DNA of 64,000 bases, taken from positions 41,398,901-41,462,900 of the forward strand of contig OX387183.1 in assembly GCA_947561395.2 (NCBI GenBank). Reading direction: 5' to 3'. The notes under the pieces are model-generated. The model saw nothing but the letters and a program-made list of their open reading frames with translations. It was not told the DNA's origin and made no database searches. Origin of the DNA: Buxus sempervirens. Its lineage: Eukaryota > Streptophyta > Magnoliopsida > Buxales > Buxaceae. The position numbers and the translations under genes are program-made. Of this stretch, positions 4,028 to 43,299 are shown one piece after another (the stretch's first letter is position 1; each line of letters opens with the position of its first letter).

Positions 4028-4385
4028 AGGATCCTCTGTGAAGCAGGAAGGTACCCTCGGTTTATATTGAGGTACCTTCGATTTATATTAGGGTACCTTA
4101 GGCTAATTTTGGTAACTGCATATGGCTTACCATGAGGGGGTACCTTAGGCTTATATGGGAGTACCTTAGACTTACATGAGGGTACCTTAGGTTTCAATTT
4201 ATATTAGGGTACCTCATGTAAGTCTAAGGTACTCCCATATAAGCCTAAGGTACCCTCTCATGGTAAGCCATATGCAGTTACCAAAATTAGTCTAAGGTAC
4301 CGCCTTCTAAACCTAAGGTACCCAATATAAATCGAAGGTACCTCAGTATAAACCGAGGGTACCTTCCTGCTTCACAGAGGATCCT
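4028..4385. repeat. 358 bp long palindrome built from GGTACC units
   Basis: AGGATCCTCTGTGAAGCAGG at 4028 is repeated in reverse complement ending at 4385. The two arms of about 165-170 bp match almost throughout around a short centre near 4195-4210. Each arm holds five to six GGTACCTTAG-like units separated by TATAT-type spacers. A transcript would form a long hairpin. The same GTACCTTAG word makes the large minisatellite at 39241-40352. Confidence 0.85.
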
Positions 4386-12638: not shown

Positions 12639-12716
12639 GGGTATGCGCTTAGCTCAAGCTGAGTGGATCCCCTTTTTAGGTGAGCGCATACCCCTTTTTT
12701 CTCGCCTATATAAGGC
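12639..12716 (+). promoter_or_regulatory. Palindromic words and TATA box of Bi
   Basis: GGTATGCGCTTAGCTC (12639) and the complementary arm TGAGCGCATACC (12681-12692) form an inverted repeat directly before TATA-like CTATATAAGG at 12707. GCGCTCAGCTCGCGCTC words return downstream at 13424-13612. Confidence 0.6.
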
Positions 12717-13423
12717 CGCGCGAGATTTCGCGCAAAAGGTTGGACGTTTTTTTTGTGGTTGGTGATTTGAAGGTTGGCCTGTTCTTCGGCATTCAAAGGT
12801 GGTCTTGACCACCATCTTCCCCAAAGAACAAACCAGACACTTCTTCCCTATCTTCCTCGGACCTTTCTTCCCATCCTCATCCTCATCTCTTGATACCCAA
12901 AGGAGAAGGAGGGGCTTGCCGGGTGAGCTCAAAGGAGGAGATCCCAGCTGCTGTTGGAGCTTCAAAGGGGGAGCCTACCTGCTCAATTCAGAAGGGTGTT
13001 TTGACACCCAGGTAATGTTCCCGACGAACTCTTGTCCAAAATAAATAAGTTCATTGCGATATCTTGTTTTCTAGCATTTTTGTTCTTCACTGCTATTACT
13101 TGTTTGTTTGATTCGAAAGGGGAGCATGTTCCCCATAATTTCTCCATCTCTGTTGTTGTAACCCCATAAAAACCCCCTCTTCCCTTCTTCATAATCATGT
13201 TCTGTTAGTTAGGGTTTTGATTTCGGAAGTTTATTCATGTTCTGTAGTGTTTGGTGTTCGGATTTGTAGGTTTGTAAAGAGATTTGATCCTCACAACTTC
13301 GGTTAGATTAATTTCAAATGGTGTTTAGAGGTCTTCTGGGGTTCTAAGGATCCCCAGGGAGGGCTTACGAGCTTAAAAACCATTAAAAATGGAGTTCGGG
13401 CAAAAAAACAGAAAATCAGGGTA

Positions 13424-13612
13424 TATGCGCTCACTTCATTTTTGATGCTCTCAGCTCGCGCTCACTTAGTTTTGGATGCGCTCAGCTCGCGCTCACTTAA
13501 ATTTGGATGCGCTCAGCTCGCACTCACTTAAATTTGGATGCGCTCAGCTCGCGCTCACTTAATTTTTGGATGCGCTCAGCTCTCGCCCACTTCATTTTTG
13601 GGTGTGCCCACT
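13424..13612 (+). repeat. 31-32 bp tandem repeat with GCGCTCAGCTC core
   Basis: GGATGCGCTC starts at 13474, 13505, 13536 and 13568, with degraded units on both sides. The core repeats the word found just upstream of the TATA box of the same LTR. Confidence 0.85.
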
Positions 13613-13887: not shown

Positions 13888-16042
13888 CACTATAATGAGC
13901 TAGTCTCTCCTTGATAAATATCAATTTTGATATGTTTTTGTGATGTATATTCTGTAACTTTTGCTAGACATGGGTGGCATTCCTAAATCAAGCCAACTGA
14001 GCCAAAAGGGTTTCCGGGTCACCCGGAAACCCAATATGGGACTTGGACCCCCGGTCCAACCTGATTTCCAGTGGGCCTTCCAACGGGGCCCACCCGGCCC
14101 AATAAACATGTATGCATGCAACTTAATCAAGATAAGCAAAATTAATCGATTAAACCGGGCGGGCCAAACCTAAGGCGGTCCACCCGAACCAGACTTGTGA
14201 AATTGATGCATGAATTGCGTGGTTTGGCCGAAACCAAGGGCAAGGGCCTACCGGGCCAGCCAAAGCCCACCAACCGAACCAAGGAAGGGTGTAAACCCTA
14301 ACTTCTGGTAACTTGGGCTTACAGGCCCAGATTTGGACTACGGGCCCCAAGCCCAGTGTCCAACTCACTTTGGCAAATTAAAAAGATAAATCCAATAAAA
14401 TTATTTGGCCACCATGTGGGCCCACAAACCAATCCGGCCCACCTTTGCATGGAAAACACTTAATCTTCAAATCTGAACCTAAAGAAAAATAAATTCACTT
14501 AACCAAAGCCCAAAGGACCTCCTAGGATAGACCGAGGCCCACAAGGGCACACGGGCTTGACTAAGCCCACCAAGGACACCGTGGGCCTTCCAACGGGACC
14601 TACCCAACCAGACTTAGATTACCTAATTAATCAAGATAAAAGCAATTAAAGGGACCCACACCACTCAGGTGGTCCCGCCAGACTTAACCAAACTGCATAT
14701 CGGATTAGGAATCGGGTGAGACCAAAATAAGCTGACTCAAACCAGGATAAACCTAAGGGACCCGTCACCCGACGGGGTGGACCGGGGTGTCTACGGACTT
14801 CCCCGGAACCGAGACCCTACTTAGAATCTCAAAGCCGCAGACCAAAAGCCCTAATAGACAAGATTAGGCACCCAGGTGTCCGCCTGTACCCCATCAGGCG
14901 GTGACGACTCTGAATTTCCCCGTGCCGCGTTTCCGACGCGCGCACAGAAAGTATACTAGAAAATGAATAGGGGGCATGCTCGATGGAGTTGACTCTCCGA
15001 GCACACCCCGATTTATAAATGTTGAACTAATAAAAAGGGAGAGCTCACCTTGGGGTCTTAAGACCTTGCGGAGTGTGCGTGATGCCTCCTCGGAGCAGAT
15101 GAGTGCCGGAACCTCCTTCTTCTTTTGGCACCAGCAACAAGTCCTTCAAATTAGACGAGGGAGGAGAGGGAGCGAGAAACTGGGGTCCAAAGGGGCTTGA
15201 GGTGTCGTCGGGGGCTTTGTGGAGGAAAGGAGTGGCCTGGGGAGGGGGTCTCGAACCAGGCAGAGTGGGGAAGAAGAAGAGAACCAACTGGCAAAGTCGT
15301 GCCAATCAAGAAAAACCAAACAAAAAAAAAAAAAAAAATCTCCAACCCTTTGTAATACGGAAGCAACTGTATTTATAGGGGAAAGTTTGGGTATCCACCG
15401 GGTTTGGCGCCGAGTAGCTGTCACTCGGCGTGAGCGACACAATGATTAAAACAATAAATGTGGCCGCGAATTCGTCCGAAAAATCCGAAAATTAAGATAT
15501 AGTTCGTGGGATATTTGGATTTAATATTATTTTATTCAGATATTTTCAGATTGGTCCCTGGGATCTTTTGAATGTTTGGATATTTACGGATTTGATCTCC
15601 GAGATATTTTCCTGCACAACTCGCCACGTGTGCAGCTTTTTGCCACGTGCGCAGTTTGCCGGTTTTGCTGCTTGGGAATTTTGTCAGTTCATATTTTCTT
15701 CATCCGGGCTCCGATCTGGGCAAAATCAATTGCGTTAGAATCGTATTGGAGCCCTCTATCCAATGGCATGGGGGTAAGCACCTGGATCGGGGTTTAGCAA
15801 AAAGTCAACTTTCGGCTCCCCCTCAAGTTTGACCGCCCGCAGAACCTTCATCCGGACTCTGATTCCAGTAAACTCGGTTGCGTTGGAACCACGTCGGGAT
15901 TCTCCATTCGTTGAGATAAAGCAAGGTGGTCAATTGTCACTTGATCAAAAAGTCAACTTTTATCCCCTTAGGGTTTGACTTTCTACCAGGGTTTTTATTT
16001 TCAGCACTTCTAGGGGTGCAAAAATAAGGTGCTTACACTTGG

Positions 16043-19290: not shown

Positions 19291-19432
19291 TGTAAGCACC
19301 CATATTTTGATCAAACCAAAATATGCTAAGATAAATGGGAAATAATAAAAATTGGAGGAGCATGATTCGTCCGAGTGGGCGGCTGAGTCGCCTCAGCCGT
19401 CAACTCAAGACAAAAGGGGAGAGAAAAACACA

Positions 19433-19705
19433 ATATGCGGTTGCTTCGCAACCGCATATGGTGTGCGGTTGATTTTTTTGGCCACTGCCCTCGCGAGCCA
19501 ATCAGAGCAAGCGGTGCCGAAAAGTCAACCGCACATACAGTACGGTTGCATGGCGCGTCAGTCTGCGCCTGTACGAGTTTGTCCCCTAATGATTGCTGAA
19601 AAGACATTGCCAAACCGCACATACGCTGCGGTTTAGACCAAACAGCACCTACTGCGCGGTTTTGACCAAATTGCACATAAACCGCACTGTATGTGCGGTT
19701 TTGTC
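19433..19705 (+). repeat. Cluster of AACCGCACATAC...GTGCGGTT palindromes upstream of B3 TATA
   Basis: A perfect 12 bp stem with 3 base loop spans 19433-19459 (ATATGCGGTTGC arm). Further palindromes lie at 19527-19547, 19612-19634 and 19679-19702. The TATA box follows 12 bases after the last one. The same word returns downstream at 20347-20398. Confidence 0.88.
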
Positions 19706-19713
19706 CCTGTTTT

Positions 19714-19723
19714 CTATAAATAG
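19714..19723 (+). promoter_or_regulatory. TATA box of B3
   Basis: CTATAAATAG, directly after the palindrome cluster. The leader that follows leads to the splice-donor sequence at 20004, about 280 bases on. Confidence 0.65.
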
Positions 19724-20000
19724 CAAACCCGAACTTTGGACAGGGGTTGGCCCCCTTTGGATGGATTCCCACTTCTTCTCCCCCACACCCTCTGATCCGA
19801 AACCCCCTCTTTCAAGCCCTCTTGGCTTCCTAAGTCCCCAAGCCCCATCTAAAGCCCATCTTGCCCTCTTGTAAGCCCTTCTACCTCATCCTAGAAGCTT
19901 AAAGAAGGAGGAGCTTGTTATTGGTATTGAAGGAAGGAGCTCCAGCCACCTCCTTCGCCTCAAGGAGCTTCAACACACCTCACTCCAGGGTCTTAACCCC

Positions 20001-20015
20001 AAGGTAATGTTTCCC
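20001..20015 (+). promoter_or_regulatory. Conserved splice donor in family-B leader (B3)
   Basis: CCAAG/GTAATGTTTCCC. Matching sites are CAG/GTAATGTTCCC in Bi (13012), AAG/GTATTG in B4 (24771), AAG/GTAATGTTCCC in B5 (27189) and AAG/GTGAGC in B1 (15048, minus). Confidence 0.55.
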
Positions 20016-20346
20016 ATGGAATCTTGTTTGTCATAAATGAAAATGAGCATATTTCGGGCATATTTGTGTGTCTCCCATCTTGGGAGTGCTTTTGTTTCCT
20101 TTTTTCCAGCATGCTAGTAATCATGCCTGATCGTCGCTGTTTGGTTTAGTTCACGTATTTGTTCATGATTTGATCGAATGGGTATGTGTATGGATGAGCG
20201 AACAAAGTAGGTTCTTGAGCCAAAAATGGAGCATTTGAGCCACTGTGGGTCTGTTTAGAGACCCACAGAAGTTCGTAAAGACTCCTGAGAGGTAGACGAA
20301 CACAGCCCCACCTGGTATTTTCTGCCTTTTAGGTTTTCTGGGCCTG

Positions 20347-20398
20347 AACCGCACACACAGAGCGGTTTGGCCCAAACCGTACCGCATGTGCGGTCGAA
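20347..20398 (+). repeat. Second cluster of the B3-specific palindrome
   Basis: AACCGCACACACAGAGCGGT and ACCGCATGTGCGGT repeat the word seen upstream of the TATA box of the same LTR, about 630 bases downstream of that box. Confidence 0.8.
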
Positions 20399-20951
20399 GC
20401 CAAACCACAACCGTTCTACGTTTAAGCCCAGTAAACCCACCGATTTTGTGTAATTAGTCAACCCCCAAATCAAATAACCAAATCCAATAAGCAGGGTTAT
20501 CCAACGTAACCCCAAATGGGACTTGAGCTTTCACTAAAGCCCAAATTGGAATCTTGTCGGCCTTCCAACGGGGTCCACGTCAAACCAACATTACCTGGAT
20601 AAAAAGATAAAATCAAATAAAAGAAAAGGGGACCCGCACCGTCTTGGTGGTCCCCACCTAGACCAATAAAATGTGCATGTTGGCATAGAAGTGGGGTAAA
20701 TTTAGAATTGAGTCAACTCACAAAACAGAAAACCCAAGGGACCCGTCAAACCGACGGGGCGGACTGGGGTGTCTACGGACTTCCCCGGGTCGTAACCGAG
20801 CCCTTTCTCAGAATCTCAAGCCGCAAACTAAAATAGACATCCTTAGGGCACCCAGGTGTCTGCCTGCACCCCATCAGGCAATGGCGACTCTTAGCCCCCA
20901 ATTCTCCCCTCGCTTTCGCGCGTGCCCTCGCACCGGCACGACGTGCACACA

Positions 20952-24435: not shown

Positions 24436-26639
24436 ACCCATCACAATCCACATAATAAAAGCCCCATGGAGCCCCATACGTAGAGGAGGAGACATTTTTG
24501 TTGCTCTCTCCATCTTTGCTCCAACCTCTCTCCCAAGCTCCAAGCTCTCCCCCATTGGTCTTCCCAAAGACTCTCCTTCTCCATCTCTCCAAAAACCCTA
24601 GCCTAAAGCCTATCTTAACCCTCCATCCTCAATCCCTTCTTCATCTCCATCACCTAAACACTTGAAGGAGAAGAGAAGCTTGCTGTTGGTGGTAGGAGGG
24701 AGCTGCTCCAGCAGCCGTCCAAGCTTCAAGGAGGAGTGTACACACCATTCTAGGGTTCCAAAACTCCAAGGTATTGCTTCTTTCCACATTTCATTTCACA
24801 TATATAAAAATGAGAGTATTTCAAAGTGTTTAGAGAGTTTGGTTTCTCCTTGGTATAAACTTGTGTTTGTACTTAGTTTTCAATTGCTTGTCTCTTATTT
24901 CTGTAATATGAAAATCTCCAAAGGTAAGGGGGTGTACATATGATCCAAAAAGGGGGAGATGAGAGGCTTTTCCACACATTTTTAGGTTCTATTTCAAGCT
25001 ACTGTTTTGGGTGTTTTGTTTTATCTTTTGATGGAGCATGTTCCCCATTGTTAGCCTATCTAATGTACCCTCATGTAACCCCCACTTTCCCTTCTTATGT
25101 ACTCTCTTTTTCTTCTCTTTTACCACTTTCTTTTGGATGTCTTCTAATGGTGATGTTTTGTTTCTTTTGTGTGCCTTGAAGTATGTGAAAAGTGTGTGCA
25201 TATGTGCATGTAAAACCCACCATCATGCTTCCCTCTTCCCCTTTACAAGGTTGTTGTAGAATCCATTAGCATGCCTTTAGTAGTGTTAATAACATGTCCT
25301 TTTCTTTGCCTTTTTAACTTGCTGTTTTGATGGTATTAGCATGACCCTTATCCCCCCAAACACCTTGCTGTCCCAGCATGCTCCATGCCCCATTTAGGCT
25401 TCGTATGCAACCCACTAGCACCATGCATATAGGTTGCCATCCCTACAACCTTTTTAGGTTGTTCCCAACCCATTTAGTATGCCTAATCCACTCCAAAATA
25501 GCTGCCCCCCCTCCTACAGCATTCTTTTTCTGTTTCATTTTGTTTACCTTCATGATTGGCTTCCTTGTTTGTGCACACACATCACGTGCACACACTCACC
25601 AGCCTTATCATGCATGCTTGGTTGCTCCCCACCATGCCACTACTTCCTATTGCATGAGTCTAAGCCCGAACACCTGCTGTCCCCATGTATAGTACATTGA
25701 AATGCATATGTTGGACTTTTGGGCTCGAGCATGCCTTAGCCCCTTTGTTAATTGTGTACCTTAAGGGCTATGGTGCTTGCTGTTTTGCATGGACTGAGAG
25801 ACCAAAATAGGGTCAACATGGTCCCTGTTTAACTATCATATGTGGTTTAGGTGGGAGAAGGCAATCACCCATGCCTTCTCCCCTTCTCTTTGTTGTAAAA
25901 CCCCCCAAAAAGAAACCGAAGTGGGGAGATCCCCCATTCCCTAAACCAATGTGGGCCTTCCAAAGGGGCCCACCAAGCCTAATAAACCCTCTTAAATGTA
26001 AATAAGCAATTTAATTAAACTGGGTGGACCACACCACTCAAGGCCCACTGTAAGCACTTTATTTTTGCACCCCTGGAAGTGCTGAAAATGAGAACCCTGG
26101 CGGAAAAGTCAAACCTTGAGGGGTCGAAATTTGACCTTTTGATCAAGTGAAAATTGGCCACCTTGCTTTATCTCAATGGATAGAGAATCTCGACACGGTT
26201 CCAACGCAACTGAGTTTGCTGGAATCGGAGTCCGGATGAAGGTTCTGCAGGCCGGTCAAACTTGAGGGTGAGTCGAAAGTTGACTTTTTTCGAACCCCGT
26301 GCCAGGTGCTTGGCTCTACATCATTGGATAGAGGGCTCCGATACGAGTCCAACGCAACTGAGTTTGCTCAAATCGGAGTCCAATTGAGGGAGATATAAGC
26401 TGTCGAAGTTTCTGAGTGAAAAAACCGGAAACTGCACACGTGGCGCAGGAACTGCACACATGGCAGCCAACGCAGCAAAATATCTCAGGGACTAAATCTT
26501 AAATATCCAAAAGTTGCTAAAAATCTTAGGGACTAAACCAAAATTCGCAGGGGGCAATCCGTAGATATCCAAAAGTGTCAAATCGGTCAAATCGGTCGAA
26601 TCGGTCAAGTCGAGGGGCAAATCCGTAATTTTTCGATTT

Positions 26640-26906
26640 GTATCCGACCAAATATGCCGGATACACTTGCTCCTCTTCATATCCGACATCAAATGTTGGA
26701 TACAAAGATTTGCTCGGCGAGATTCGTGCCGATTCGCCGATAGATTCGCGGCGGCATTTAATTTTCGAAATTATTATGTCTTGTATCCGATATAATAAGC
26801 CGGATACAAAGGGAGTGCAGTGTATCCGACATAATATACCGGATACAAAGGAAGTGTAGTGTATCCGACATTAAATGCCGGATACAAAAATTTATCTATA
26901 AAAAGG
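26640..26906 (+). promoter_or_regulatory. GTATCCGACAT...ATGCCGGATAC palindromes and TATA box of B5
   Basis: Five copies of an imperfect palindrome (10-11 base arms, 5-6 base centre) at about 26640, 26680, 26784, 26821 and 26861, the last ending 7 bases before TATA-like CTATAAAAAGG (26896-26906). The same word stands in front of the TATA boxes of family-D LTRs at 40921-41045 and 35917-36020. Confidence 0.85.
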
Positions 26907-28149
26907 CAACAGCAGCCCCATTTCGGGGGTTGGCTTCTTGTATGATGTTTCCACCCCTTCTCCCCCACTGCACCTGGTCCGAAATCTCCCACTTTAACCC
27001 CTCCTTGCTCACCCAAACCTAAAAGACCATTCCTTTGCTTCCCTCCTTCATCTTCTCCTTCATCTTCTCCACTTCAAATCTCAAAGGAAGAAGGTGAGTT
27101 TGCTGTTGGTGTTTGAAGGTGGTGTTCCAGCAGTGTTCAAGCTTCAAGAAAGGGTGAGCACGCCACTCGAAGGTCACGAGGCCCCAAGGTAATGTTCCCT
27201 ATGGTATTTTGTTCATGATATATAAAAATGAGCTCCATATGAGCATGTGTTTTCAACCATGTGCTTCTTACCATTTCAAGCATGTCTTGCCTTTTCTTTC
27301 TCTACTTGGTCTTCCCCATTGTGTATAAGAATAACCCCATGGTAAGGGGAAGACACGTGACTGGCTTCAAGGGAGGAAGAGGGTAACATATAAGATGCTC
27401 TTAATGGTTCTTTTGGGCTACTGATTTGTCTCATTTAAAGTGGGAATTTGTTCCCTCCATTTTGCATCTAATGTATCCTTTAACTCCCCCCTCTCTCCCT
27501 TCTCTAACTAGGCTGCTTAGATCATGGTGTTGGCTTCAAATATTAGATTGGTAATATGGCTTGTTAGCATGTCTAAGTTAGGCAAAAAGGGGTGCCTGTT
27601 TTTTGGATGCATGCTCTCATGTTTTCACTTTAATAAATCCTAGCTGCTGCTGTAGGTGATGAGCATGTCTCTCCCTCCTTTTAGCACCTGCACACATATC
27701 CAATATGTCTCCATGTGCCTACTTATCTTCACTAGAAGCATGTTAGGACATTCCCTCATTTGTCATAAGCTAATCCTCACACTAGCAAGCAAATACAGCC
27801 TAGGGAATGCATGCACTTCTATCATGTTTTAAAGAATTCCTTTTAGTCATGTTTGGTAGGTTGGCATTCGAATTGCTTGTTTGCTATTTCGTGGAAGTTG
27901 GAAGAACCAAGGTAGGGATACTCAGGTCCCTACCCCATTGTTGAAGGTGGCTTAAGTGGGAAGAGGCAACTCCATGCCTTCCTTCCTCCCTTCCCATGCT
28001 GTAAAGTCTCCAAAAGAAACCAAAGTGGGGAGATCCCCCACTACCTGAACCACTGTGGGCTCAAACAGGGGCCCACACAACCCCTGGAGCATTCTAGAAG
28101 GCCCAAAAACCCAACCCCCTCTGAAAAATCCAAAAACAAGCTTCTGTGT

Positions 28150-28254
28150 GTTGATCCGGCAACTCAGGTTGGATCAACAAAGTTCCATTCGTAGCCGGCC
28201 AAAGATGCCGGATACACAGAGCTGTGTGTGTAACCGGCATCTCAGGCCGGCTAC
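28150..28254 (+). repeat. Second cluster of GTATCC/GTAGCC palindromes in B5
   Basis: Three palindromes at 28150-28178 (TTGATCCGGCA arm), 28191-28217 (GTAGCCGGC...GCCGGATAC) and 28230-28254 (GTAACCGGC...GCCGGCTAC). They are variants of the word upstream of the same TATA box, about 1.3 kb downstream of it. Confidence 0.85.
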
Positions 28255-30799
28255 GCTGCCAGAATGCCATTTTTTTTGCTATTTTGTGATTTTGTGCTAT
28301 TTTCTTGATGTGTTTGATCAATCCGGATGAACCAAATTGATTTCTGGTCCAAGGTGGGCCTTGGACCAACCCGGCCCAAATTGATTTCTGGTGGGCCTTC
28401 CAACGGGGCCCACCAAGCCCGACAAACCCATTTTTTCTAAATGAAGACAATCAAATTAATTGAGTGGGCCGGACCATTGGAGGCCCACCCAAGCCTAGTT
28501 TCAGTAGCATGTTGCTTAGATCTAGGCATGGTTTGGCCGAGACCACGGGTAGGGCCGATCGGGCCTGCTAAAGTCCATTAAATCGAACCAATTTTAGGGT
28601 TTCCAAACCCTAACTCATGAAGACTTGGGCTTTCAAGCCCAAACCTAGGTAAAGGGCCCCAAGCCCAAAGCCTGGCCCATTTTGGTGAAGATAAATCAAA
28701 GATAAATTAAATCATTTGGCAACCAACTGTGTGGCCCACTCAAGGGCCCACAAAGCAATCCCAGCCCACTTTGGCATGGAAATCCACTCAAATTTAATTA
28801 AACTTGAAATTTAAATAAAATCAATTCATTGAACCAAAGCCCAAAGGGCCTCTCAGGTTTAGGCTGAGGCCCACCAAGGGAACATGTGGGTTTAACCAAG
28901 CCCACCAAGGGATCCGCAGGCCTTCCAACGGGGCCTGCCCAATCCGACTCACACCACTTTAAGCTAAGAAAGATAAAACCAAGTAAAGGGACCCACACCA
29001 CTTTGGCGGTCCCGCCAGACTTAACCAAATTGAATGCTGGAATAGGGATCGGGTGAGTGAAAGACCAAAGTTGACTCAAAACCAGGGAAACCTATGGGAC
29101 CCGTCACTTGACGGGGCGGACCGGGGTGTCTACAGACTTCCCCGGACCGTAATCGAGAACTTGTTTAGAATCTCAAGCCGCAGACCAAGCCTTAATAGAA
29201 TAACTTAGGCACCCAGGTGTCTGCCTGCACCCCATCAGGCAGTGGCAACTCCAAACACTCCCGAGGCACGCATCATTTTGCATGCGCCTCGTTGTGCGAC
29301 CGAAATCGGGTGCTCACACCCACCAAAGCCCAACTTGATGCATGCTGGACTAGCTAGGAATGGTTTGGCCGAGACCACGGGCTAGGGCCTATCGGGCTCG
29401 CCAAGCCCACTAACCAAGCAAGCAAGGGTTCAAACCCTAGCTTCAAGAAACTTGGGCTTTCAAGCCCAAATTTGGACTACGGGCCCCAAGCCCAGTGTCC
29501 AACCCGATTTTGAGAATTAAATCAAAGATAAGCTAAAACACTTGGAAACCCTCGTGTGGCCCAATGGGCCCACAAACCAATCCGGCCCACTAGGAATAAA
29601 ATGTAGTTTAATCTTTCAATCTGAACTCTAAAGTAAAATCAATACACTTAACCAAAGCCCCAAAGGGCCTCCCAGGCTTAGACGGAGGCCCACTAGGGGA
29701 CATATGGGCTTAACCGAGCCCACCAAGGAGACCATGAGCCTTCCAACGGGGCCCACCCAATCAGACAAAGTTCACCTTAATTAACCAAGATAAAATCAAT
29801 TAAAGGGACCTACACCACTCAGGTGGTCCCGCCAGACTCAATGAAATGAGCATGTTGGAATAGGAATCGGGTGAATAGACAGACTGAGTTGACTCGTAAC
29901 CAAGAAATTTGTGGGACCCGTCATTTGACGGGGTGGACTGGAGTGTCTACGGACTTCCCCAGACCGCAACCGAGAACTTATTTAGAATCTCAAGCCGCAG
30001 ACCGCCTAAATAGAAAAACCTAGGCAACCAGGTGTCTGCCTGCACCCCATCAGGCAGTAGCGACTCCAACTTTCCCGAATTACCCTTCAGGAGGCTCGCG
30101 CCCACGCCGTGTGACCATGCGCACAGCGCCCTTAACAGAAAATTCTTGATTTTCATAATTTGATTCTAAATTCAATACTAAATGATTTTTAATGGATTTT
30201 ATCAATTAAATTAGATGATTTGAGACACTTTTAACTGGTCAAATACCCTGGTTGCCACATAAACAAATTGAAGATTATTTTAGGACGGATAGTGGCTTGA
30301 CTTGAATATAAAATTAAAAATTGAATTATTTGAACATCTGAATCTAATTGATTTAAATTCTTAATTAGGAAAAATGTAATTTTAAGTATCATGACCACTG
30401 AACTTCACTAGAAAAATCGACACCAGAAACTATCTTATAGACTCAATCTTGGAGAAAAATGTAATTTTAGGCTTTATTATTTAATTAAATTGGCTTACTC
30501 CAATTTCTCTCTACTAAATTGTAAGTACCCTATTACTTTAAGTGACTACCTCTAAACCTTAAATAAGCTTTAAATTACTTTAATCAATCTCACCACTACC
30601 TTTAACCACTTGAGTCTTCTATTATTATAAAAATCGCATAACTAGACCCCGTCCTTGTGAGTACAAACTAATGAATTGATTTTGGAACAAGGTTTGGAGT
30701 ATCAATTGATTAGGATTAAGCTGTTATATATAATTAAATATAATTTGGACTGTGGATCAAATGCCATGATGGCGATAAGAGATTTTGACCATCTACGAA

Positions 30800-33827: not shown

Positions 33828-36133
33828 GTGTGAGACATGGAAAAATCACCTAAGTGACTTCCTAGATCATGACACGGGATTCAGGAAAAGCTAAAGTGAA
33901 AATAACTCTAATTCAAAATAAAAAACCAGAGATGGGTAAGGGGATTAGATTATGAATAGGGGAAGGTGTTAGGCACTCCTATTCATCCACACAAGGTGGT
34001 TGCCAAGTATTGTTCATGCTCTAAATAAAGAAAGCTTGCTAATTAAAACAATCAAAAAGGCTTGAAAAGAATCAAACACATGTATGATTCCTCCACATGA
34101 GAAGTCCGATGAATTCTAGACCCTCTTTATGAAAGTATCACTTCTAGGACATCACCATTAATTACAAATCAAATACAAGCAAGTTAAGGCAAATCCGGGG
34201 CATTCGGTAAAAGATGGAGTCATTCGACCATAAATAATTCAAATCAAATTCAAATTGAATGAGACTGAAGCCATTTGAAAGATTATGACAAATAGAAGAG
34301 TCAGGAAAATTTTCAATTAAATCCGATTAAAGTCCTAAGAGATGTGCTTGTTTGAAATCTATTGTTATAAGTTGATAAAAGTGGCAAGTGGGCAACTTTG
34401 AAAACCTATTTGTGGAGATTGGCTCCATATAAATCTTTGGAAATTTGCATGAATGAAGTATGAGGTGCCATCTTTCAAACGAAATAGGCCTCACACAAAA
34501 CTTCATTCGGATGTGACTTGTGTGACCTCCCGAACATGCCCAGAGGATCACAGATTAACCCAGAATTGTGCTATTGAGCAGTTTTGAGTAAATCAGACAC
34601 ACAAGACACAAATGAAAGCAAACATTTTTGAAACCAATTGGATTTGAAAGTATACTCATAAAGGAAAACACCTAAATCAAAACCACTTAAATCGGACTTA
34701 AAACGAGCAAATGGTGCTCATTCAAAGTGACAGGTTCAGCAATCTGACCTGTCGACTTTGATCAAATCGTGTCAAAAATCCACTCCATAAAAATGGCTGA
34801 AATTTTACAGACAAAAACTATACAATTTCACCTTTCACATGTCTTTGAAATCACTCCAAAATTCATCTGGATGATGAAGCTATGAGTGTTCTAAGATAGG
34901 GTACAGGTGCTGTCCTGATTTGAAACTTTTAAGTAAAATCAACCCAAAACAGGGGGTATGTGCCTACAATCTCTATGATCTGAACTAAAATCATGTGGAA
35001 AAATGTTGAAAAACCTCCAAAAAGATATAGGGCACGAATTTGGCTCAAAACTCTCATTGATTGGAGAGAAAATACCAAAACCCCCAAAATGGAGCAAAAA
35101 TGCCCAAAATAGAGAGACTAGACCATGAGGTCTTCTATTATCAAGGATGAACCTTCTTGTATTCTTTTGAAAACCATTAAGAAATGTCCAAGAAAGACTT
35201 AGGGCAATTTATCTCAAATCTATCATAATGAATACGATAGATCCAAAATATAAGCCTATTTTATCAACACAAGTGCGATGGGTGCATGTGTAAAGAAACA
35301 TCTTCTTTCGGAGGGAATGGAGATCCAATGCTATAAAAAGCATGGATCTAAGTATTCTCCCTGGAAAATGAAATCAAAAAAATAATCAACACCCATGAAT
35401 CACAACATATAGCATTCAAATATACATTAATTAAATGGGGGTTCTATCACTAGGGTTATATTCCCATTCTCGTTTCCCCTAGCTTTCTCTTCACGTTTTA
35501 CAGCTAGAGATAGTCTTGAGGTACTTTGAGTAAGGAATGGGGTTCCAAACACACTTAGGCCATTATTAGAAAAAAAAAAAAAAGGAAGAAGGAGGAACTA
35601 ACCCTAGAATTTAAGAACAGAAAATTAAAAGAAGGTTTAGGGCTTACCTGGATTTCTGGGAGCAATGAGGCAGAGGTTCCCTTCTTCACTTGAAGCTCTT
35701 TAATCTTCAACTTTCTGGCCATTTGCTTGAGGAGAAGCTTCCTATTTATAGGCAAAGGCTAGGGCAAGGGGTGCCCTAATGCTAGACACAAAATTATGTA
35801 TAGAATCCACCAACTTAAACCCTAAGGCTATTTTTGAGAATTCCACTCTTAGAACAGGGATAAGACAGTAAAAGTGAAAACTTTCGGAATTTTCCAATTT
35901 TTGCAGCAAAACATTAGTATCCGGCAACTCAGGTCGGATACCAACCCAACCCTTTGTATCCGACATTATCTGTTGGATACAAGCAAAATAACTTGTATCC
36001 GACAATTATTGTCGGATATATAGGCAGAAACTTTTATTTGAACTTTCATTTCGGATACAAAAGAAAAGCTATTTTTTTAATACTTTGGGCCAATTATTCA
36101 TCTTTTTATGCAGTGCAATTTGGGGTGTCTACA
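33828..36133 (-). mobile_element. Family-D solo LTR (D2), reverse orientation
   Basis: TGTGAGACATGG...GGGGTGTCTACA, 2306 bp, flanked by ACGGG (33823-33827) and ACTGG (36134-36138), 4/5. It is the reverse complement of a shorter relative of 40353-43299; both share the CACCTTGTGTGGATGAAT-type stretch (near 34000 here, complement of about 43040). Minus-strand landmarks: palindromic GTATCC words (35917-36020), TATA CCTATAAATAGG (35743-35755), splice donor CAG/GTAAGC at 35647. No coding domain is present. Confidence 0.85.
35917..36020 (-). promoter_or_regulatory. GTATCCGACA palindromes upstream of D2 TATA
   Basis: Three palindromes at 35917-35941 (GTATCCGGC...TCGGATAC), 35955-35982 (GTATCCGAC...GTTGGATAC) and 35994-36020 (GTATCCGACAA...TTGTCGGATA). 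In the LTR's orientation they stand about 160-270 bases upstream of the TATA box at 35750. Confidence 0.85.
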
Positions 36134-39240: not shown

Positions 39241-40352
39241 CACTAGGGTGTACCTAAGGCATACCAGGGGGTACCTTAGTGTTATTTGAGGGGGTACATT
39301 GGTATTAAATGAGGGTACTTTGGTGGTTCAAGGGTTTTTTTTAACTATTTTAAGGGGTATACTATAGGGATGCTTGGGGGTACTTTAGTGTTATTCAAAG
39401 GGGATACCTTGGTATTAAGTGGGAGTACCTTAGTGTTAAGTGGGGGTACCCTTGTGTTTCAAAGGGGTTTGCCTTAGCCACTTCAAGAGGTATGTTTTAG
39501 GGATGCTTGGGAGGTGTACCTCAGTTAACACAAGGGGTACTTTAGTTATATGAGGGATACTTCAGTTATTTGAGGAGGTACCTTGATGTTTCAAGGGATT
39601 TACCTTAGTCATTCTAAGGGATAAACCTTAGATAAGCTTAGGGAGTGTACCTTAGTTATATTGACGAGGGGTACTTAGCTATAGAAGGGGTGTACCTTAG
39701 TTATATGAGGAGGTACATCTAAGTAATACGAGGAGGATGTACCCTAGGTAATATAAGGGATGTACCTTAGGTATGTTGGAAGTATATTAGTGATATAAAG
39801 GGGGTACCTTTAAGTAATACCAAGAGGGTGTACCCTAGGTAACATAAGGGATGTACCTTAGGTATATTAGAAGTACTTTAGTTATATAAAAGGGGTACCT
39901 TAACTGTATAAGGGAATGTACCTTACTTATATAAGGGGGATGTACCTTAGGTAAACAAGGGGGTACTTTAAGTAAAACAGTGGGGTACCTTAGCCAATAT
40001 GAGTGAGGTGCCTTAGGTAATATAATGGGTACTTTAGGTATACATGTGGGGTACCTTAGGCAAACACAAGAGGATACCTTAGATAAACACAGGGGTACCT
40101 TAGGCAAACACAAGAGGATAACTTAGGTAAACATAGGGGTACCTTAGGCAATTAAAGTAGGGTACCTTAGGAAATTAAAGTAAGGTACCTTAGGGATACA
40201 AGTGGGGTACCTTAGGTATAATTGGGGGGTACTTTAAGTATCACTTGGGTGTTACCTTGGGTAATACTTGGGCGTACCTTGGGCATACAATGGGGGTACC
40301 TTGGGTAATACTTAGGTGTACCTTGGGCATACAATGGGGGTACCTTGGGTAA
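39241..40352 (-). repeat. GTACCTTAGG minisatellite in the U3 of C3
   Basis: About 45 irregular units of 20-30 bp such as GGGGTACCTTAGGTAAACAC. The array begins about 60 bases upstream of the TATA box in the LTR's orientation, and solo LTR D1 sits inside it. It continues at 43300-43510, so the original array was about 1.3 kb. The same word builds the 358 bp palindrome at 4028. Confidence 0.92.
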
Positions 40353-40920
40353 TGTAGACACCCCAAAATTGCACGATTTTTGATAAATCTTGAAGGAGAG
40401 AAATATTTTATTGGAATTTTCAATTCTTTGCATTGGGTTTGAGATACTTAACCCGTTTGAATCCAAAACCGTAAAGGAAAAGGCCCGAATTCAATCTTTT
40501 GTGCAAAGTCAAACTTTTTTCCGGTTGAATTTTGTTGACTTTTGACCCCAGAAAATGAAATATTTTTTAAAGCCAGATTTCAAGATAATTTTTCCCGATA
40601 ATCAGGTTTTTAGCCATGTTATTGCATAAAAGAATTTTTTGAGATTTTAAATCTTGACGAATACCTTGGTTTTAACATGTTGAATCTTTTTACCGGACCT
40701 GAAAAATCGGAATTTTGCCTAGAACTGGAAAGTTGACTTTTTATTCACTTGGAATTTGGGTCTGGAACTATTTTTAATGGATTCAAATTGAGGGGGGGGG
40801 GGGGTGTTTGCTTATTTACATGTAATATCTTAAGTAAATAGAGATTAAAAAATACAAGGACATTTACTTAAGTAAATAAGTATTGCCTGTGTTAAAATTG
40901 GGATAAAAGCTTCTTTTTTT

Positions 40921-41045
40921 TGTATCCGACATTATCTTTATTGTATTCGACAAATAATGCCGGATACAAGTAGCCCTTAATGTATCCGGTAACATATGCC
41001 GGATACACATAGGCGCTAGTGTATCCGACCTGATATGCCGGATAC
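40921..41045 (+). promoter_or_regulatory. GTATCCGACAT palindromes upstream of D1 TATA
   Basis: Three or four imperfect palindromes (for example 40981-41006 GTATCCGGT...ATGCCGGATAC, and 41020-41045 GTATCCGAC...ATGCCGGATAC). They end about 165 bases before the TATA box, matching the spacing in D2. Confidence 0.85.
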
Positions 41046-41210
41046 ACTAATTTTGCTCAAAATTAGGGTTTTCCGAGAGCTTTTCACTTTTATCATCATA
41101 TCCCTCATTAAATGAGTGGAAATCTCGGAAATAGCCTTAGGGTTAAGGTTGGTGAGCTATAGACATTATGTTGTGTCTACCATTCTCACCAACCCTAACC
41201 CTAGCCTTTG

Positions 41211-41222
41211 CCTATAAATAGG
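41211..41222 (+). promoter_or_regulatory. TATA box of D1
   Basis: CCTATAAATAGG, identical to the D2 box at 35743-35755. The leader to the splice donor is about 120 bases. Confidence 0.65.
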
Positions 41223-43299
41223 AGGCTCATCCTTAAGCAAATGGCCATTAACTCTTGCCTTGAATTCTTGCCAAGAATCTCTGCCAAGAAGAGCTCCAAG
41301 AGAAGAGGGAAACTGCTGCGGAAGTGCTTCCAGAACCCAGGTAAGTCTCAAACCTCTTTTTAATTTTTGTTTTTACATTTCTAGATCTAGATCTCTTCTT
41401 CTACCTTTCTGTAGAATAAGGCCTTCTATGTGTGTGAAAACCCTTCCCCAGCTCAAAGTATCTCAAAATTCCCCCTAGCCGTAAAACGTGAAGGCGGGAT
41501 CTAGGAGAAACGAGATTGGGGATTGACCCTAGTACTAGAACCTATTTAGAATAAAGCCTTTTGAATCTTTGAAGCCCGTTTCATATTCAAAGTACCCCAA
41601 GATTATCTTGAAGAACCGTGTTTAACGGGGAGAGAGAACTAAGGGAAACGATCATGGAACGGAACCGTAGGTTGTTTTAGATCCCTTTTTTTTATTGATC
41701 TAAATGCATGCTATGAGCCTTGTGATTCTTTGAAAACCCTTTCATATTCAAAGTACCCCAAGATTATCTTGAAGAACCGTGTTTAATGGGGAGAGAGAAC
41801 TAAGGGAAACGATAATGGAACGGAACCCTAGGTTGCTTTTAGAACCCCATTTTATTGATATAAATGCTTGATATCTTTGCTATGCTATTGGAATGGTTTT
41901 CGCACTTACACATACATAGCACATGGTTTTGGCGGGATAGGCTCACATTTCGGGTTTATTGCATTTATTGTGATAAATCTGAAATAAATAGCCCCAATCA
42001 ATTCTGGAATGTCTTTAAATGATTTTTAAAGGATTTGTATTCATTTTGCACGAATTGCACACACTTTGTCACAGTTTTGAATTGTTTTTCTCCAAAAAAG
42101 GCCTAACTTGACAGCAACTGTACCCCGACTTCGGACACTCATAACTTCATCGTCCGGATGCATTTTGGAGTGATTCTAGAACCATGGGAAAGGTGAGGCT
42201 GTCTAGTTTATGTCCACCAAATTTCATTAATTTCTATCAAGCGGATTTTTGACATCTCTCTGTCGAAGTTGATTGGACAGTTCAGGTTTAAATACGGAAC
42301 TTGTCACTTCGATCGAGCGCCATGTGTTCGTTTTAAATCCGATTCGAGTGATTTTTGTTTCTGGGCACTCCTTTATGAGTATATTTTCAAATCCAGTTGG
42401 TTTCATAATTTTTTGACTCCATTTGTATTATTGGTAACAGATTTACTCAGAACTGCTCATCAGTACTTTTCTGGGTAAATCTGTGATCTTCGCGGCCTGT
42501 TCGGGAGACCACCCAAGGCACATCCGAATGAATTTTTGTATGAGGCTAGTTTCGTTCGAAAGATGGCCATACAGACTTCAATCACACCAAATTTCGTAGA
42601 TTTTTATGTAGTGGAGTTTTCTAGGTGATTTTCCAAACTTGCATGCTCACCACTTTTGATTTTCTCCAACAGCAACTTCAAAGGAGCATAACTCCTAGGA
42701 TTTCAACCGGATTTACTTGAAATTTTGCATGAGTCTCTTATTTACCATAATCTTTCAAATGGATTTGGTTTGGTTCAATTTAAAATTGGATTTGAATGAT
42801 TTCAAGACAAATGGCATTACTTTTTACTAAATTCTCCGGATTTGCCTCAACTTGGTTTTGAGCAACTTTTGCTTTGATTTCCATCTTTTTATGATATTCC
42901 AGAAATGATATTGACATAAGAGAGGATCTGGAATCTATTTGGATCTTCATGTGAAGATATCATACACTTGTCCTTTTCCAATGTTTTCAATGATTTTAGC
43001 AAGCTTTCTCATTTTTTGCATGAACAAACACTTGGCAACCACCTTATGTGGATGAATGGGGGTGCCTAACACCTTCCCCCGTTCATAATCTAATCCCTTT
43101 ATCCATCTCTGGATTTGATTTTCAAGTAGGGTTATTTTTACTTTAGAATTTACCTTTTAGCTATTTTTGCTTATCTTTAATCTTTTGGTGTCCATTCTCA
43201 CCTCAAAATTCTGAATGGTGGCGACTCTCCCAATTTTACATTGAGCCCATGTGTTGACGGAGGAGGAAATCATCCTGGTGATTTTTCCTGTGTCTCACA

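Follow-up and report, generated by a model that had tools for sequence, protein, structure and literature searches.

The window (that is, the whole 64-kb stretch of DNA that we analysed) holds a series of long terminal repeats (LTRs) of retrotransposons, in whose promoter regions short palindromic words are repeated. What are these words, and what do they belong to? The features on which our argument turns are the following.

12641..12691, plus strand: Bi word GTATGCGCT...AGCGCATAC, of another word class, without the N11 geometry
15408..15430, minus strand: B1 palindrome CGCCGAGT-N7-ACTCGGCG (CCG-N13-CGG)
19291..20951, plus strand: B3 solo LTR (TGTAAGCACC...GTGCACACA), 5-bp target duplication CCAAT, 30 copies aligned
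19433..19459, no strand: large palindrome ATATGCGGTTGC-TTC-GCAACCGCATAT in B3
19449..19471, plus strand: B3 word unit 1, CAACCGCA-N7-TGCGGTTG (CCG-N11-CGG)
19526..19548, plus strand: B3 word unit 2
19612..19634, plus strand: B3 word unit 3
19640..19662, plus strand: B3 word unit 4, with left arm AACAG here and AACCG in most other copies
19679..19701, plus strand: B3 word unit 5, ending 13 bases before the TATA box
19715..19723, plus strand: B3 TATA box TATAAATAG
20346..20396, plus strand: two AACCG units of B3 downstream of the promoter, 28-bp step
26049..29318, plus strand: B5 solo LTR, target duplication CCCAC
26640..26885, plus strand: five GTATCCGAC-N7-GCCGGATAC units of B5, starting at 26640, 26679, 26783, 26822 and 26861
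28150..28254, plus strand: three more B5 dyads of the same spacing, downstream of the promoter (28150-28178, 28191-28215 and 28230-28254)
33829..36133, minus strand: D1 solo LTR, target duplication with one mismatch
35917, 35956 and 35995, minus strand: D1 TATCCG units, with TATAAATAG at 35742-35750
39249..40352, minus strand: C3 LTR array of GTACCTTAGG units, mostly direct repeats, 21-23-bp step
40353..43299, plus strand: D2 solo LTR (TGTAGACACCCC), target duplication GGTAA
40943..41045, plus strand: three TATCCG units of D2, 39-bp step, with TATAAATAG at 41213

Exact 5-bp target duplications flank B3, Bi, B5, B1, D2 and C3, and those of B4 and D1 have one mismatch; D2 is inserted within the C3 LTR, and B3, by eye, sits within another repeat. 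The B3 units are AACCGCA-N7-TGCGGTT, 23 bp each, five of them upstream of the TATA box (unit 4 decayed in this copy), and those at 19433-19701 and 20346-20396 are all ungapped and in register. The B5 units follow each other in 39-bp steps inside two groups, after which comes TATAAAAAG at 26897, and the dyad at 28150-28178 has TGG in place of CGG. The words stand where the initial annotation had put them (in B3, B5, Bi, D1 and D2, E1 and E2), and the palindromes are real. It had the B3 word end 12 bases before the TATA box, which is right as to place, although the count is 13. Its picture of words stacked directly upstream of the box holds for B3 but not for D2, where 167 bp separate the end of the array from the TATA box, nor is the word confined to that slot, since B3 (20346-20396) and B5 (28150-28254) repeat it downstream.

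How far do the palindromes exceed chance? Local inverted 6-mer pairs were counted over the 300 bp that precede the TATA box and compared with 300 dinucleotide shuffles; with six of the 10 TATA positions used lying 1-8 bases off those found, the observed count was above all 300 shuffles in B3, B4, B5, D1 and D2, and the excess was weaker in B1, Bi, E1 and E2, where 7, 5, 5 and 4 of the 300, respectively, reached it. In C3, 136 of 300 shuffles reached the observed count, which is not above chance; the array that the initial annotation had named is present there, but it consists mostly of direct repeats, and we reject it as a palindrome array. An Rfam search and a tRNA scan gave no matches, and LTR backbone patterns had none in the collections of viral contigs and genome contigs.

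One Geometry and a Shared Vocabulary

The B3 and B5 words look unlike, yet both are CCG-N11-CGG. For a 164-kb sample, made up of the window and ten stretches of 10 kb from preset places, we counted CCG-Ns-CGG at each s: s = 11 has 43 occurrences (window 19, stretches 24) vs. 2-20 at other values of s; when two matching outer bases are added, 28 occurrences at s = 11 stand against 0-3 at each other spacer from 0 to 30. Across the 676.5-Mb assembly of 247 contigs, AACCGCA-N0-24-TGCGGTT was found 3,781 times vs. 14 for the reversed pattern, TATCCG-N0-24-CGGATA 43,191 times vs. 404, and GACCG-N11-CGGTC 4,254 times vs. 146. With spacers of 0-24 allowed, 49 of the 50 AACCGCA dyads listed have spacer 7 (which is the 11-bp CCG/CGG spacing), and spacer 11 is found in 81 of the 87 TATCCG dyads listed, which span 0.14-4.25 Mb of one contig and are not independent, many being copies of a few elements. 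The words, in other words, are a shared vocabulary, with one geometry in nearly all of the dyads listed. Within families, some of this constancy of spacing is due to common descent.

Words as Properties of LTR Families

Are the words specific to single copies, as was first claimed? A query with the B3 slot gave 40 scored places in the genome, the window's own included, 36 of them near full length and four partial. A second query, covering only 19730-20340 and so blind to the slot to avoid selecting for it, also gave 40 copies (window's included), and the AACCG word is kept in 40 of 40, as read in 30 of them and as known from alignment alone for the other 10 slots. Those read were 29 together with L085, the fortieth copy, which has the same words; the remaining 39 slot-blind copies overlap a slot match (four of them partial). 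Since the AACCG word is kept in B3 copies, it is a property of the LTR family. Thirty full B3-type LTRs have a mean pairwise identity of 0.950 over their whole length; the slot stands at 0.946, the U3 that precedes it at 0.959 and the part that follows at 0.950, with a minimum along the alignment of 0.86, at the 3' end, and an indel hot spot at 19411-19450, within the first palindrome. A B3 relative of 75% identity, in stretch L035 of the preset sample, retained the AACCG words.

Full-length B3-type elements (L044, L031 and L033, on C4 and C19) have a gag with a long N-terminal extension. Their gag matches Retrotrans_gag, with Ty3_capsid below the cut-off, and the absence of an RT match among the ORFs scanned (part of all ORFs) suggests that they may be non-autonomous. 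Beside the B3 copy of L085, at 28-110 on the reverse strand, lies a 55-bp tandem with TAACCGACCTAAGTTTTCGGTTA, which is CCG-N11-CGG too.

For the D2 family, D2 positions 1-545, which end before the array, served as the query; there were 39 other copies, and in the 20 whose slots were fetched, TATCCG dyads are present in 20 of 20, with 2-5 strict units each. Identity among the window copy and these 20 is 0.98-0.99 just before the slot, goes down to 0.69-0.74 at 40938-41017, stands at 0.98 over 20 bases past the slot (41058-41077) and is then 0.77-0.94 up to the TATA box; the slot dip is not the sole variable stretch. Nine copies have four units in exact register, and with units picked by their arm letters (up to 3 mismatches), identity is 0.906 in the arms, 0.721 in the inner spacer, 0.529 in the linkers and 0.800 in the flanks. 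Over 77 units, selected on 12 arm letters (2 mismatches allowed at most) and hence biased upward at those letters, arm positions carry 1.4-2.0 bits (1.0-1.1 at two A/G, C/T positions) and linkers 0.2-1.1; arm letters outside the picking pattern still carry 1.4-1.9. The D2 slot is variable, and the words are the part of it that is retained: the linkers and the inner spacer change fastest, and the arms do not.

With the word kept in 40 of 40 B3 copies and in 20 of 20 fetched D2-family copies, we reject copy-specific words. A peak of divergence at the slot, which had been offered as a check, appears as the D2 dip (0.69-0.74) but not in B3 substitutions (0.946 in the slot, 0.950 over the whole), and as a general rule it is rejected. 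Of the proposed hypervariable module, what survives is a binding-site-like array that is replaced between related LTRs (L084 with L054, and L035), although its arms are kept within a family.

Exchange between Lineages

Nor, contrary to the first description, is a word kept to one family. B5 shares with D1 and D2 its word (GTATCCGAC-N7-GCCGGATAC-like units) and the 39-bp step despite their unlike LTRs, of which no other part matched. Within D2-like sequence, L084 with L054 matches D2 at 93.8% identity through positions 1-519, beyond which its words are AACCG; in L035 the match extends over 1-545 at 88% identity, and GACCG words follow. D2-like backbones that run into other words, along with the sharing between B5 and the D elements, are the pattern expected from promoter-module exchange between lineages, and it is by such exchange that words change between related LTR lineages.

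The Antisense PMD Gene and Its Promoter

Identical four-unit TATCCG sets lie 20.4 kb apart on contig C1 (3409339 and 3429750), with more arrays between, and from the array positions we take them to be two LTRs. The pieces between them encode, in sense, G-patch, RVT_1, RT_RNaseH and RVT_3 domains (an integrase zinc-binding domain falls just below the cut-off) and, in antisense, a PMD/DUF7745 protein (E 8e-13 and 5.6e-19). A second antisense ORF looks coiled-coil-like by eye. TATCCG element L087 has RT_RNaseH and a second RNase H, RVT_3, and since a dual RNase H is the criterion of the Tat lineage in the accessible part of PMC9289625, the TATCCG PMD element points to Ty3 Tat. As to B3 and that lineage, gag is present and an RT match absent among the ORFs scanned.

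In L089, four TATCCG dyads stand upstream of the antisense PMD start, and TATAAA follows them after 13 bp. The same layout is found in a second copy (L091) and in L041, which came from the preset sample and whose PMD is 78% identical; the 13-bp gap between array and TATA box is common to the TATCCG-type PMD promoter and the B3 LTR. Sixteen stretches were fetched, for their AACCG dyads alone, round some of the 50 AACCG sites listed, and in two of the 16 (L055 and L057, 95% identical copies) a PMD gene begins that shares 68-70% identity with the first; four AACCG dyads precede it, along with, by eye, TATTTTAAA. Two further sites among the 50 lie 357 and 355 bp before PMD matches. At these two copies and the other AACCG-type PMD promoters, there is no strict TATAAA.

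If words are element-wide, AACCG is expected in the LTRs of L055 and L057 as well. Both stretches at the expected distance (L092 and L093) contain the D-type LTR start TGTAGACACCCC; in each, five strict AACCG dyads fall in U3 and another three immediately precede the LTR, TATAAATAG follows the array at roughly 200 bp, and strict TATCCG dyads are absent. A single GACCG dyad is present in L092 as well. L093 was picked by distance alone and L092 by distance with its GACCG dyad already known. From distance and orientation, these LTRs (presumably 3' LTRs) would belong to the PMD elements. The two LTR stretches are relatives, 92% identical, and therefore make up one lineage only; in this AACCG lineage of two related copies, the same word stands at the PMD promoter and in the neighbouring LTR.

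The genome has at least 118 PMD/DUF7745 matches, of which 20 were fetched, picked for spread; DUF7745 had no match in any of 14 control genomes. Eleven of the 20 are 60-77% identical to the first gene, and nine of these 11 have strict N11 dyads upstream: AACCG, in 3-4 units, in L099, L104, L113 and L109 and a fourth word, GCCCG, in L103, L108, L110 and L112 (2 units) and L111 (1). The arrays before PMD in L102 and L107 are, by eye, decayed. The other nine, more distant PMD genes (31-41% identical) are without any strict N11 dyad upstream. Upstream of all 20 genes, 24 units occur at spacer 11 vs. five at the remaining spacers between 4 and 19 taken together. PMD proteins whose genes carry one word are 0.95 identical (14 pairs), as against 0.77 (highest 0.86) in the 41 pairs that differ in word; for this comparison L109 was treated as having a word to itself, and L055, L057, L102 and L107 were excluded. 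That words follow PMD clades could come from linkage alone. A PDB sequence search with a PMD piece gave no match. The distant PMD/DUF7745 group without strict N11 dyads consists of L094-L098, L100, L101, L105 and L106, and in L029 a PMD-like stretch of 33% identity lies beside a B3 copy.

Relation to Known Systems

The initial annotation knew of no named feature that would fit. The closest published parallel is, in fact, found in the repeated-motif boxes of Sireviruses (Bousios et al. 2010, PMC2829016), which in the portion of that paper available to us are likewise element-specific palindromic CGG/CCG boxes, many per LTR, a short way upstream of the TATA box, as our palindromic repeated boxes are. 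There, too, extra boxes lie beside an additional gene, which is env in Sireviruses and the antisense PMD gene here. The Sirevirus boxes belong to Ty1/copia and are called Sirevirus-specific, whereas the elements here are Ty3-type; neither the B3-type elements (gag) nor the TATCCG elements (RT, dual RNase H) are Ty1/copia Sireviruses. Their order is CGG...CCG with 4-6 bp between (our count from the paper's Table 3, without Tnd-1), whereas here it is CCG...CGG with 11 bp, in several words and in thousands of sites common to families. The Bi, C3 and B4 words have neither order.

VANDAL elements are Mutator-like DNA transposons. As described in the accessible sections on VANC (Hosaka et al. 2017, PMC5735166), they likewise carry arrays of short non-coding motifs that evolve by tandem repeats, with a motif that differs between families and one that is found also in an unrelated element, as here; motif arrays in non-coding regions are a feature of our PMD-encoding element as well. 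The VANDAL motifs are arrayed in one orientation, and VANC binding has been shown experimentally, whereas the reader here is only a candidate. The U3 of Tnt1 is likewise modular and group-specific in otherwise similar sequence; the part of PMC1838419 at hand describes for it neither a common set of palindromic words nor a constant spacing or an antisense gene. Grande (gene23), Retand and RIRE2 have, as here, an antisense gene between pol and the 3' LTR, and for Grande an antisense promoter of its own is reported, with no link to LTR motifs in the text accessible to us (PMC7264820). Maize Ty3 elements are generally without an obvious peak of such structures, according to the available part of PMC10760457. 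We found no report in the open literature of a shared fixed-spacing Ty3 LTR vocabulary or of the same array recurring at an antisense PMD promoter; since only the open literature was covered, the absence of a report is not proof of novelty.

A Proposed Address and Its Candidate Readers

What might such words do? Judged from sequence, shared fixed-spacing palindromic words may be docking sites for a regulator. We propose that the words are probably arrays of dyad-symmetric binding sites for a dimeric regulator and that they form an element-wide address. In most of them the dyad consists of CCG, 11 bp and CGG, with 2-4 matching outer bases giving the word its identity (TATCCG, AACCG, GACCG or GCCCG); arrays at the promoters of Ty3-type LTR retrotransposons would be bound by a dimeric, sequence-specific factor acting on transcription or silencing; and in some elements the same word also marks a 3' non-coding stretch and the promoter of the antisense PMD gene. 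The presence of one word at LTR, 3' stretch and PMD promoter suggests that it works as an address for the whole element. LTRs of different families share one address, and in a lineage that changes its address, the slots would switch together, by whole-module exchange. Regulator sites fit best, since the spacing is fixed while the inner sequence is free, the arms are kept, and the arrays stand before two kinds of promoter. Weighing against the proposal are the Bi, B1, B4 and C3 words that deviate from N11, the nine distant PMD genes without a strict dyad and the AACCG-type PMD promoters without a strict TATA box. To positions, geometry, conservation, sharing, module exchange and the common word of PMD promoter and neighbouring LTR in one AACCG lineage, all of which we observed, the proposal adds what we infer: that LTR and PMD gene belong to one element, that the sites are bound, that a dimer binds them, that transcription responds and who the reader is.

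For that reader, a host transcription factor (or small family of factors) with CCG half-sites is a serious possibility, though it falls somewhat short of probable. Retrotransposons would have converged on its sites or swapped them, so as to be expressed while it is active, which suits the finding of one word in otherwise unlike LTR families; and the Sirevirus boxes of other plants, which also have CGG/CCG dyads, matched mostly sites of stress factors when compared with a motif database (PMC2829016, in the portion available). One factor does not easily explain several words of one geometry, however, or why LTR and PMD promoter should agree in their word. The literature on plant LBD half-sites yielded nothing useful. 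The other candidate is the element's own antisense PMD protein, in a VANC-like self-recognition that would keep the element unsilenced or active and that other LTR families with the same word (B3 and B5) would exploit; we think this rather unlikely. The PMD promoter and its neighbouring LTR share a word, both unlike those of another lineage, and words track PMD clades (0.95 within vs. 0.77 between), a correlation that promoter-gene linkage would also yield. The coiled-coil-like look of the second antisense ORF also counts in its favour. We know of no PMD shown to bind DNA, which counts against such a reader. Arabidopsis PMD proteins do act in silencing (PMC5418596 and PMC7156037, as far as their accessible text goes), and VANC offers a precedent that includes a motif common to an unrelated element (PMC5735166, same limit); the DOWN motif of MAIN/MAIL1 targets (CATGCAGTTT in MORC1, in the available part of PMC9899485) is, however, unlike these words. 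In its fullest form, which we put forward just as tentatively, the antisense PMD would be a dimeric DNA-binding reader of CCG-N11-CGG with a lineage-specific outer flank, both in front of its own gene and in the LTR. A change of address would go with a change of reader, and LTR families that have taken over the address, gag-only ones among them, would be parasites of that reader.

Two further accounts dispense with a DNA-binding reader. The palindromes could act mainly as RNA hairpins, at transcript ends or, as has been suggested for maize elements, as small-RNA substrates. The slots do fold strongly (z of -7.2, -7.7 and -8.6 for slots folded alone), A-T and G-C partners co-vary at one position in D2 units, and in maize the LTR hairpins of Copia elements show a correlation with small RNAs and with methylation (PMC10760457, in the part at hand). 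But a hairpin does not need a constant loop, and the loop here is fixed in length and varied in sequence; mispairs show little strand bias (G-T vs. A-C, 31 vs. 29 in D2 and 93 vs. 75 in B3), and pairing alone does not demand one sequence common to all of an element's units, so we regard hairpins as improbable as the main constraint. It is less probable still, and in our judgment very much so, that tandem duplication and template switching in reverse transcription have simply made functionless palindromic arrays, even though strict units vary from 2 to 5 among D2 copies and arrays are swapped as modules; arms exceed spacers, linkers and even flanks in conservation (a comparison subject to the bias of arm-based picking), and the same geometry recurs at PMD promoters.

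A fixed-geometry motif in tens of thousands of copies, standing at LTR and PMD promoters, gives a direct in vitro handle on the role of PMD genes in retrotransposons, a matter that, like the roles of plant LTR antisense genes, is left open in the literature consulted (PMC7156037 and PMC7264820). It would also show how retrotransposon families share and swap regulatory addresses and would bear on the origin of the PMD-family host silencing proteins.

Words Outside the Geometry

A universal N11 rule is rejected: the words of B1 (N13), Bi (GCGCYCAC, with varied spacing), B4 and C3 deviate from it. GCGCTCA words related to the Bi word are found also at 13420-13600, and Bi-type LTRs (13420-13600 and L037) have the GCGCYCAC word on both sides of the TATA box; in L037, a relative of Bi, it is altered in both places, before the box and downstream of it. 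A foldback of 358 bp at 4028-4385 has arms made of GGTACCTTAGG units with a 21-bp step, and its word is that of the C3 array (39249-40352), though the two look unrelated.
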